64,000 nucleotides of DNA. It comes from Bradyrhizobium oligotrophicum S58. Its GTDB lineage: Bacteria > Pseudomonadota > Alphaproteobacteria > Rhizobiales > Xanthobacteraceae. A program made the translations under genes and the position numbers. Of the stretch, positions 26,370-30,108 are shown piece after piece; position 1 is the first letter of the stretch; every line of letters starts with the position of its first letter. The notes under the pieces were generated by a model. It did not search any database, was not told the origin of the DNA, and saw nothing but the letters and a program-made list of their open reading frames with translations. The stretch covers positions 62,001-126,000 of the forward strand of contig NC_020453.1 of NCBI RefSeq assembly GCF_000344805.1. Direction: 5' to 3'.

Positions 26370-27940
26370 TCTCTGCACTCACTCATATTACGCGGCTCGC
26401 CCGGGCCGCCTTCGTGTTCGCGCGCGAGGGCGTGTTCGGCGCCGTCGATCCGAGCCTGGCGCCACCGCCGGGCCAACTCGCGCTAAAGTTGGCGCGACTG
26501 GTCGAACGTCCCGGCGCCAAGTCCGGACCCAGATTATCGCGCGCACTGGAACGGATGGGACCGGCCTATCTCAAGCTCGGCCAGTTCCTGGCGACCCGGC
26601 CGGACGTCGTCGGCGTCATCATGGCGCGCGATCTCGAATCCCTGCAGGACCGGCTGCCGCCGTTCCCGCAGGCCGAGGCCGAAGCGGTCATCGCGACCGC
26701 GCTCGAACGTCCGATCAGCCAGCTGTTCACGCACCTCGGACCGCCGGTCGCCGCCGCCTCGATCGCACAGGTGCATCGCGGCGAGGTCGAGCGCGACGGC
26801 ATCCGTACGGCCGTCGCAGTCAAGGTGCTCCGGCCGAACGTCGCCGCGCGCTTCCGTCGTGACCTCTCCGATTTCTTCTTCGTCGCCGAGAATGCCGAGG
26901 CGCATTCGTCGGAGGCGCGTCGCTTGCGCCTGGTCGAGGTCATCAACACGATGTCGCGCTCGGTCGCGATGGAGATGGACCTCCGGCTGGAGGCCGCGGC
27001 GCTCTCCGAGATGGCGGAGAACATCAAGGACGACCCGGACTTCCGCGTCCCCACGGTGGACTGGGATCGCACCGCCAACACCGTGCTGACGATGGAGTGG
27101 ATCGACGGCATCGCGCTGAACGACCACGCCCGGCTCGCCGAGGCCAATGTCGATCTGCCCGAGGTCGGCCGCAAGGTGATCCAGAGCTTCCTGCGCCACG
27201 CTTTGCGCGACGGCTTCTTCCACGCCGACATGCATCCGGGCAATCTGTTCCTGGACAAGCAGGGACGGCTGGTTGCGGTCGATTTCGGCATCATGGGCCG
27301 GCTCGGCATGAAGGAGCGGCGCTTCCTGGCCGAGATCCTGCTCGGCTTCATCACCCGCGATTATCGCCGCGTCGCCGAAGTGCATTTCGAGGCCGGCTAC
27401 GTGCCGCCGCATCATTCGGTGGAGAATTTCGCGCAAGCCATCCGCGCCATAGGCGAGCCGATCCACAACCGCACGGCCGAAGAAATCTCCATGGCCAAGC
27501 TGCTGACCCTGCTGCTCGAGGTCACCGGCCTGTTCGACATGCGCACCCGGCCCGAGCTGATCCTGCTGCAGAAGACCATGGTGGTGGTCGAAGGCGTCGC
27601 GCGCGGCTTCGACCCCAAGCTCGACATCTGGAAGGTCGCCGACCCCGTGGTGCGCGAATGGATCGAGCGCAATCTCGGGCCGATCGGCCGGATCGAGGGT
27701 GCCGTCACCGGCATCGGCGAGCTGGCCCGGCTGACCGCGACCCTGCCGCTGCTCGCCGCCCGCGCGGCCGCCGTGCTCGAGCACATGGAGACCATGACCC
27801 GCGACGGCCTCCGTCTGTCACCCGAAACCATTGCCGCCATGGGCCGCACCGAAGGCAAAAAGAGCCGCTGGCGCGCCATCGCCCTCTGGGTGATCGCGCT
27901 GACGTTCATCGGGATCCTGTTTGCGGTGCTCAGGCTGTGA
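26366..27940 (+). CDS. ubiB: Ubiquinone biosynthesis kinase-like ATPase UbiB
   Basis: UbiB is an atypical membrane kinase-like ATPase needed for coenzyme Q assembly. The GTG at 26366 overlaps the ubiE TGA and gives about 524 residues; the frame stays open further upstream but there it is only the shadow of ubiE. Hallmarks: the KxGQ motif in [18 protein letters not shown], Ala-rich nucleotide loop [28 protein letters not shown] (catalytic loop) and [12 protein letters not shown] (DFG). A C-terminal hydrophobic helix ([20 protein letters not shown]) anchors it to the inner membrane. Confidence 0.96.
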
Positions 27941-27981
27941 CGTAGCAGCCATCAACAAGCAGCGCCGCCACAGCCCCGGCT

Positions 27982-28080
27982 GTCATCGCCCGGCTTGACC
28001 GGGCGATCCAGTACGCCGCGGCCGTTGTGGACGAATCGATGGGCCTCGGCGGACTGGATGCCCGCCTTCGCGGGCATGAC
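27982..28080. repeat. About 100-bp composite palindromic repeat (copy 1)
   Basis: Outer arms GTCAT (27982-27986) and ATGAC (28076-28080). Within are two stem-loops, CGCCCGGCTTGACCGGGCG and GCCCGCCTTCGCGGGC, and inner arms CCAGT/ACTGG. The same plan and much of the sequence recur at 36268-36368. It sits between ubiB and coaBC. Known in rhizobia as intergenic palindromic elements; here no coding function. Confidence 0.8.
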
Positions 28081-28201
28081 GGCGGTAGTTGCAGCAACAT
28101 CGGCGGGCAGGCGGCGTCTGGTCTGCGGGCGGTAGAGTGATTGCACTGCATTCATTTTGTGCTAGCATTGCCTTCACAACGACAATGCCGGGGAGGCGGT
28201 C

Positions 28202-29653
28202 ATGGCGAGCCTGACCATCCGCAAGCTGGACGACTCGCTGAAGACCTATCTCCGGCTGCGCTCGGCGCAGAACAAGCGTTCCGTCGAGGAGGAAGTCCGG
28301 GTCATCCTGCGGGCGCTCATTGAGCCAGTCGATCCGTCCGAGCCGCCAGCAACAGCCCCACCTCCGGCCGCTCTGCCTGAGCCCGGCTTCCCTCAGCCCG
28401 GCGCCGCCCGCGAAGCCCGTGTCACCCTGATCATCGGCGGCGGCATTGCGGCCTACAAGTCGCTCGACCTGATCCGGCGGCTCAAGGAGCGCCATATCCA
28501 CGTCCGCTGCGTGCTGACCAAGGCGGCGACGCAGTTCGTGACCGAACTCGCCGCGTCAGCGTTGTCGGGCGACCGCGTCTTCACCGACCTGTTCGACGCG
28601 CGCAGCGAGTTCGACGTCGGCCACATCCGCCTCGCGCGCGACTGCGACCTCATCGTCGTCGCGCCGGCGACCGCCGACCTGATGTCGAAGATGGCCCATG
28701 GCGCCGCCGACGACCTCGCCAGCGCCATCCTGCTCGCCGCGAGCCGACCGATCCTGCTGGCGCCGGCGATGAACCCTATGATGTGGAGCAACCCGGCGAC
28801 CCGCCGCAACGCTGCGACGTTGCAGCGCGATGGCGTCCACATGATCGGCCCCAATGCCGGCGAGATGGCCGAGAGGGGCGAGGCCGGAATCGGCCGCATG
28901 GCCGAGGCCATCGAGATCGCGGACGCCGTGGTCGCGATGCTGAAGCCGCCTGTGCCGCGCCCGCTCGCCGGCCGCCGCGTGCTGATCACCGCAGGGCCGA
29001 CGCATGAGCCGATCGACCCGGTGCGCTACATCGCCAACCGCTCCTCCGGCAAGCAGGGCTTTGCGATCGCAGCCGCAGCGCAAGCCGTCGGCGCCGACGT
29101 GCGACTGATCGCTGGACCGGTCGAGCTTGCCGACCCCAAGGGCGTCAGCGTCACCCATGTCGAGTCGGCGCGGCAGATGCTGGAGGCCGTCGAGGCCGAG
29201 CTGCCCGCCGACGTCGCGATCTTCGCCGCGGCGGTCGCCGACTGGCGCGTCGCCCATGAAGGTGGCCAGAAGCTGAAGAAGACGGGCAAGGCGATCCCGC
29301 CGCTGCAGCTGACCGAGAATCCCGACATCCTCGCCACCATCTCCAAGCTCGGGGAGAAACGGCCAGGACTCGTGATCGGCTTCGCCGCCGAGACCGAACA
29401 TCTGATCGACAACGCCAAGGCCAAATTCGCGCGCAAGGGCTGCGACTGGATCGTCGCCAACGACGTCTCGCCCGCGACCGGCGTGATGGGCGGCGACCGC
29501 AACACCGTGCATCTCTTGACCAAGGGCGCCGACGGCGTCCATGTCGCGTCCTGGCCGATCATGACCAAGGACGAGGTCGCGACCGCTCTGGTCGCCGAGA
29601 TCGCCAAGAAACTCAACAAGGAACTCACCAAGCCAATGGGACCGCCCGCGTGA
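28202..29653 (+). CDS. coaBC: RHH antitoxin-like domain fused to bifunctional CoaBC (phosphopantothenoylcysteine decarboxylase / phosphopantothenate-cysteine ligase)
   Basis: 483 residues. Residues 1-42 ([14 protein letters not shown] then a helix to [10 protein letters not shown]) match the FitA-type ribbon-helix-helix DNA-binding domain of VapBC/FitAB antitoxins. A Pro/Ala linker (43-70) leads to Coa[17 protein letters not shown], catalytic His in FDVGHIRLA, and [10 protein letters not shown]. CoaB follows from [16 protein letters not shown] with [27 protein letters not shown] and ENPDILATI. The enzyme makes 4'-phosphopantetheine for CoA. The first 70 residues are extra relative to E. coli Dfp. 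GGGGAGG precedes the ATG. dut overlaps by four bases. No FitB-like toxin gene is near. Confidence 0.93.
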
Positions 29654-30108
29654 CACAGACGATCAGCATCGACGTTCAGATCCTTCCGCATGGCGAAGGC
29701 CTGCCGCTGCCGGCCTATCAGACCGCCCATGCTGCCGGAATGGATCTGCTCGCCGCGGTTCCCGCCGAGGCACCGCTCGTCCTTGCGTCAGGCCGCCACG
29801 CGATGGTGCCGACGGGACTGTCGATCGCACTGCCCGACGGCTACGAGGCCCAGGTGCGGCCGCGCTCCGGGCTCGCCGCGCGCCATGGCGTCACCGTGTT
29901 GAATGCGCCGGGCACGGTCGATGCGGACTATCGCGGCGAGATCTGCGTGCTGCTGATCAATCACGGCATGGCACCGTTCACCATCAACCGCGGTGAGCGC
30001 ATCGCGCAGTTGGTGATCGCCTCCGTCGTGCGCGCCGAGCTGCGTGCTGCAACGACGCTGTCGACCACTGTGCGCGGCAGCGGCGGCTTCGGCTCCACGG
30101 GCCGTTGA
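29650..30108 (+). CDS. dut: Deoxyuridine 5'-triphosphate nucleotidohydrolase
   Basis: dUTPase hydrolyses dUTP to dUMP, feeding dTMP and preventing uracil in DNA. 152 residues, trimeric family. All five motifs are visible: [22 protein letters not shown] with the catalytic Asp, RIAQLVI, and the C-terminal [11 protein letters not shown]-loop-like motif. The GTG start at 29650 overlaps the coaBC stop (GTGA), the same coaBC-dut pairing seen in many proteobacteria. Confidence 0.97.

Follow-up and report, generated by a model that had tools for sequence, protein, structure and literature searches.

CoaBC, an essential enzyme of coenzyme A biosynthesis, begins in Bradyrhizobium oligotrophicum S58 with a FitA-type ribbon-helix-helix (RHH) domain, and palindromes that accompany this domain among relatives lie in tandem upstream of its gene. 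We suggest that the protein is a PutA-like autoregulator, which would repress the coaBC-dut genes by binding these tandem operators through a captured antitoxin domain; on the comparison of related loci we put the probability of this reading at about 0.76. The gene lies in a stretch of 64,000 nucleotides (contig NC_020453.1, positions 62,001 to 126,000; hereafter the window), and the features of the locus are collected in Table 1.

Table 1. Features of the coaBC locus, in window coordinates.
Feature	Position	Strand	Remarks
ubiB-type gene (ABC1, PF03109)	26384..27940	+	E 2.4e-77; start codon provisional; upstream neighbour
Operator 1 (candidate), TGATTGCACTGCATTCA	28138..28154	.	1 mismatch to TGATTGCA-N-TGCAATCA
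Operator 2 (candidate), TGCTAGCATTGCCTTCA	28160..28176	.	site-matrix score 16.9; offset from operator 1 by 22 bp, start to start
coaBC ORF	28202-29653	+	ATG start, 483 aa
FitA-like RHH domain, CoaBC residues 1-38	28202..28315	+	PF22513 at residues 2-38
Pro/Ala linker, CoaBC residues 41-71	28322..28414	+	pLDDT <50 at residues 44-67
CoaC domain (Flavoprotein, PF02441), residues 73-244	28418..28933	+	Pfam E 3e-30
CoaB domain (DFP, PF04127), residues 255-439	28964..29518	+	Pfam E 1.3e-69
dut (dUTPase, PF00692)	29650..30108	+	E 1.4e-30; overlaps the coaBC stop codon

Judged by its domains, the window CoaBC is a complete CoaC-CoaB enzyme: residues 72-467 match TIGR00521 (coaBC, NCBIfam) with 384 bits, and both domains are complete in Pfam, NCBIfam and structure prediction. 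The CoaC flap (28868-28900) differs from that of E. coli CoaC, which we take to have a cysteine at the matching position. A Shine-Dalgarno-like GGGGAGG, read from the sequence, stands on the forward strand at 28190-28196, and an in-frame stop precedes the start at 28163. Translation from about residue 70, a start considered in the preliminary description, is excluded: codons 2-103 hold no ATG, GTG or TTG, and the first in-frame start codon after 28202 is residue 104. Given this gap and the stop at 28163, any translation of the gene must include the RHH. Downstream, dut is a probable operon partner, the operon being inferred from the 4-bp overlap of the two genes. By Pfam, the neighbouring genes encode a formamidopyrimidine-DNA glycosylase, UbiE, an ABC1 (UbiB-type) kinase, the dUTPase and a PAS histidine kinase; no toxin gene stands next to coaBC, which is flanked by the UbiB-type kinase and the dUTPase. 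Synteny identifies the ubiB-type gene as the marker of the slot that holds fitA-fitB in relatives. No sigma-70-type promoter was recognised in a promoter scan across 27940-28260. A hairpin-like GGATGCCCGCCTTCGCGGGCATGACG occurs between ubiB and operator 1 (28056-28081); with up to 3 mismatches allowed, the window contains it once.

The preliminary description had likened the N-terminus of the protein to FitA/VapB-type antitoxins, and profile comparison and structure prediction bear this out. The Pfam family FitA-like_RHH (PF22513) matches residues 2-38 at E 2.6e-14, scoring 53.3 bits where the curated cut-off is 27, and 146/146 genomes of the genus carry a match to this family. AlphaFold2 predicts an RHH monomer for residues 1-50 (helices 11-23 and 28-40, mean pLDDT 81), whose best PDB match by Foldseek is FitA in the FitAB-DNA complex 2bsq (rmsd 0.8 Å over 38 columns, probability 0.99, E only 0.14). 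A phmmer search of the PDB with the first 73 residues gave no match at E<=1; with a relative's adjacent FitA as query, FitA itself (2bsq/2h1o) was reached only at E 0.033. Among 122 distinct RHH domains R7 is kept in all 122 and T5 in 120; both are presumed to be DNA-facing strand residues, and we take R7 to contact DNA in FitA. This role of R7, like the gonococcal operator, is background to the analysis. Over 44 disjoint pairs, dN/dS is 0.137 for the RHH, 0.090 for the enzyme and 0.468 for the linker. We conclude from these comparisons that the fused RHH is an old and selected feature of CoaBC, since 67 of the 116 coaBC loci of the family carry the fusion and the dN/dS of the RHH is low.

The segment between RHH and enzyme is disordered by prediction, with pLDDT below 50 at residues 44-67, and has no significant similarity to the tails of adjacent FitAs. 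That such linkers are trimmed FitA tails in general is ruled out, as 3/67 linkers resemble these tails at p<=0.005, those of L289 and L176 convincingly; the third, from L159, seems to be a coincidental Ala/Pro match. In L289, from a Mesorhizobium-type genus, the FitA joined to CoaBC is nearly complete and retains its tail. In the window CoaBC, by the same comparison, the C-terminal toxin-binding tail of FitA is absent and a fast-evolving linker stands in its place.

The inverted sequences reported earlier upstream of 28202 exist, as two palindromes within 28138-28176, and belong to a 17-bp motif, TGATTGCA-N-TGCAATCA, found upstream of fused genes. At up to 4 mismatches in 16 positions and within 250 bp, the palindrome is present at 65/67 fused family loci, 24 of them exact, and at 0/42 RHH-less family loci (L138 was left out, having too little sequence); shuffled regions gave 23/1340. 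The exceptions among the fused loci are L051, with 8 mismatches at best, and L143, with 5, and in three further cases (L048, L053, L156) the palindrome lies more than 150 bp upstream. A motif-blind palindrome scan of the fused set ranked TGATAGCA and TGATTGCA, with spacer 1, at the top (58/67 and 56/67); the best word reached 4-5 in each of five shuffled sets, and that of the RHH-less loci was unrelated (16/42). G1, C6, G10 and C15 are invariant in 67 aligned sites, 65 from the family and two of Mesorhizobium type. Symmetric double changes, seen in 9/65 sites, give the palindrome modest support, only positions 3/13 and 4/12 exceeding shuffles (p about 0.02). Among 20 fetched loci of the order, the 16 without an RHH have no site under 6 mismatches.

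Tandem copies recur. With a site matrix trained on the family set, a second site was found in 28/67 fused family loci, 23 of the 28 at 22-23 bp, and a second copy 22-23 bp away is present in 77/80 further related loci (score >=6 within 150 bp), five of the 80 sharing upstream sequence with a family locus; no site exceeds the matrix threshold in the 42 RHH-less loci. These operator and domain counts come from related sequences and are thus not independent, and the genome samples were drawn from larger groups. In the 8.26-Mb genome of the organism operator 1 is the only site within 2 mismatches, and 10 sites have 3 mismatches, against 1 for a reversed-pattern control. Among 31 genomes of the genus, 21 carry exactly one site within 1 mismatch and 10 carry none. 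By coordinates 15 of the 21 sites lie at the fused gene and two (G010, G025) elsewhere; four stay without an assigned location, the RHH position being absent from the matches listed. In G005, G014 and G021, which show no PF22513 match besides the fused RHH, the coaBC site is retained.

The FitB-like PIN toxin for which the preliminary description had proposed a search is present in the genome, beside its own FitA: G000:C1:10351 (L001), outside the window and the only other PF22513 match of the genome, is a FitA-like antitoxin followed by the toxin gene, with TGATATCA-N11-TGATATCA upstream. Stand-alone FitAs of the genus have a half-site TGCTATCA/TGATAGCA or TGATATCA upstream in at least 7/15 loci. 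About 11-12 bp separate the two half-sites there, against 1 bp in the coaBC palindrome.

Relatives preserve what may be stages of the fusion. Four family loci (L132, L133, L135, L136) hold an intact antitoxin and PIN toxin between ubiB and coaBC; L134 has a whole antitoxin and a toxin that lacks its middle but keeps its first and last residues, and in L137 the toxin is reduced to its first few codons and its last part. The operator precedes three of these six unfused antitoxins at up to 4 mismatches (L132 and L137 exact, L135 at 4), and L133, L134 and L136 lie above that limit. Fused RHHs are nearest to the L132 antitoxin (mean identity 0.70 across 38 residues); the remaining five adjacent antitoxins, at 0.52-0.59, are no higher than the best of 15 stand-alone genus antitoxins (0.41-0.58). 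A single PF22513 match is found in 117/146 genus genomes, and in at least one of them (G035) that match is a stand-alone antitoxin. The earlier suggestion that CoaBC captured an antitoxin and put it to a new use is well supported by the intact fitA-fitB and gutted fitB in the same slot of relatives and by the near-complete FitA fusion of L289; a fitA-fitB pair apparently once adjoined coaBC in an ancestor. On the CoaBC tree the fused state is clustered, with 12 changes against a shuffled mean of 45.3. Fused, separate and RHH-less loci nevertheless interleave in this tree, so that the family may have undergone several fusions or losses rather than a single fusion event. One locus of a Deltaproteobacteria MAG (L118, contig JAFEBC010000089.1) combines a Bradyrhizobium-like RHH, located near the contig end, with a distant CoaBC; with its CoaBC only 48% identical and its RHH so close to that end, we did not count it as a further origin, and it may be an assembly chimera or a domain transfer.

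Capture by CoaBC probably occurred at least twice. In a Mesorhizobium-type genus, a label taken from the name tags of close proteins, 30 of the 40 genomes with CoaBC have the fusion and 10 do not; eight of these 10 have an antitoxin and PIN-toxin pair directly before coaBC, and two have neither. The eight pairs (L237, L280-L286) are of at least two types. The operator is present at up to 3 mismatches in 25/25 fused loci examined, a count that leaves out four further fused genomes, with L289 at 4; three of the eight unfused antitoxins have it within 4 mismatches. A second origin is probable because these loci form a separate, starred branch of the CoaBC tree, with their own family, and toxin-antitoxin pairs neighbour coaBC there. 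We do not take RHH identity alone as proof of an independent lineage: the mean identity of 0.49-0.51 to the fused RHHs of the Bradyrhizobium family lies above the minimum within that family (0.45; mean 0.72).

In a sample of 140 genomes of the order (136 with matches), a match from residue 1 at coaBC outside the family appears, among the matches listed, only in G362 and G392, both of Mesorhizobium type; a class sample of 86 genomes (63 with matches, some of them fragments), blind to fusions with a very different RHH, gave no further CoaBC match from residue 1 among the matches listed. Most CoaBC matches in both samples begin near residue 70 of the window protein, and three fetched from those beginning at residues 36-60 (L241, L249, L253) have no RHH. 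Separately, CoaC and CoaB matched as separate pieces in one open frame in G289, G331 and G395 (f31), G310 and G346 (f52) and G275 (f17), which suggests insertions between or inside the two domains.

RHH folds dimerise, and the domain might do no more than add a dimerisation or stability module to the CoaBC oligomer, binding no DNA. Oligomeric CoaBC is documented, in passages of PMC7794376, by the dodecamer of M. smegmatis; dimerisation, however, needs neither the retention of T5 and R7 nor an antitoxin-type operator that tracks the domain, and we consider such a role unlikely. The fused RHH might also still be an antitoxin that sequesters a FitB-like toxin, as the preliminary description had proposed, and the fitAB pair elsewhere in the genome offers a candidate partner. 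Against this proposal stands the loss of the FitA tail, which is replaced by a linker evolving fast (dN/dS 0.47), the only convincing tail remnants among 67 linkers being those of L289 and L176 and not that of the window. The genome's FitB moreover has its own FitA, and most genus genomes (117/146) have a single PF22513 match, all of which makes sequestration extremely unlikely.

The remaining alternatives concern the operator. It could belong to another regulator, such as a stand-alone FitA, with RHH-CoaBC responding to it or competing with it, and stand-alone FitAs do use the same type of half-site; but they space their half-sites about 11-12 bp apart and not 1 bp, G005, G014 and G021 keep the coaBC site with no other PF22513 match, and none of the 42 RHH-less family loci tested has the site, so that we find this very improbable. 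Equally hard to credit is the view that RHH-CoaBC, instead of repressing locally, uses the operator for activation or regulates other genes more widely. No promoter could be placed in 27940-28260, and the 10 weak sites with 3 mismatches elsewhere in the genome would suit such a role; against it, the organism's own genome and the 31 genus genomes have at most one strong site each, and the nearest designs are PutA, an autogenous repressor (PMC5293562), and FitAB, which binds its own upstream region (PMC3920265).

We therefore return to autoregulation of coaBC-dut by RHH-CoaBC. The idea that CoaBC controls its own gene, raised in the preliminary description, is strongly supported, on comparative grounds, by the operator that tracks the RHH domain, by its tandem copies and by the kept strand residues. 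In the ancestor, as relatives with intermediate states suggest, fitA-fitB would have lain between ubiB and coaBC; the PIN toxin would then have been deleted and the antitoxin RHH fused in frame with CoaBC. On the oligomer of CoaBC, RHH dimers would bind the four half-sites of the tandem operators (28138-28176) and repress coaBC-dut, closing a feedback loop with CoaBC as a “trigger enzyme.” Passages of PMC3920265 describe FitAB as binding its own upstream region, with four antitoxin-toxin heterodimers on a 36-bp operator, and the FitB toxin as stabilising the FitAB-DNA complex without touching DNA. In RHH-CoaBC the enzyme oligomer, a dodecamer in M. smegmatis, may take over the scaffolding role of FitB, allowing RHH dimers to bind DNA cooperatively. 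Candidate release signals are the amount of CoaBC and the binding of CoA thioesters or substrates by the enzyme; M. tuberculosis CoaBC is inhibited by CoA and CoA thioesters (both mycobacterial enzymes as described in sections of PMC7794376).

The nearest known design is PutA, the trifunctional proline utilisation A of E. coli and an autogenous repressor according to part of PMC5293562, in which an RHH is likewise fused to a metabolic enzyme. RHH-CoaBC differs from it in enzyme and pathway, and in having a FitA-type RHH with a traceable toxin-antitoxin origin. An enzyme of the PutA type would have its operator in the promoter of its own gene; RHH-CoaBC has a conserved tandem palindrome upstream, with no sigma-70-type promoter recognised in 27940-28260. 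With type II systems such as FitAB and VapBC it shares PF22513, the FitA fold of 2bsq, the half-site type of the genus FitAs and, in relatives, the locus. Unlike them it has neither toxin nor toxin-binding tail, is fused to an enzyme, and has half-sites 1 bp apart in a duplicated 17-mer. With CoaBC (Dfp) of other bacteria it has the complete CoaC-CoaB and TIGR00521 in common, and the match from residue 1 sets it apart: among the matches listed, only the Mesorhizobium-type genus has one outside the family.

To our knowledge, control of bacterial CoaBC has been described mainly at the level of the enzyme. A literature search, with most subscription papers outside it, found no report of CoaBC with a ribbon-helix-helix or antitoxin fusion and nothing on Bradyrhizobium coaBC, and the main text of PMC2701414 contains no pantothenate or CoaBC term. 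Tentatively, and with somewhat more doubt than confidence, we propose that the coaBC slot in Hyphomicrobiales is one where PIN-type pairs settle repeatedly and are dismantled, the antitoxin being welded to CoaBC and its DNA binding switched by CoA thioesters; if true, a selfish element would here have been turned into a CoA sensor that acts on transcription. Candidate intermediates persist in relatives, as intact pair, gutted toxin, full-length fusion and trimmed fusion, and a defined protein, an operator of 39 bp and point mutants make the fate of chromosomal antitoxins directly testable here. Antitoxin capture appears to have given a central-pathway enzyme control over its own transcription.
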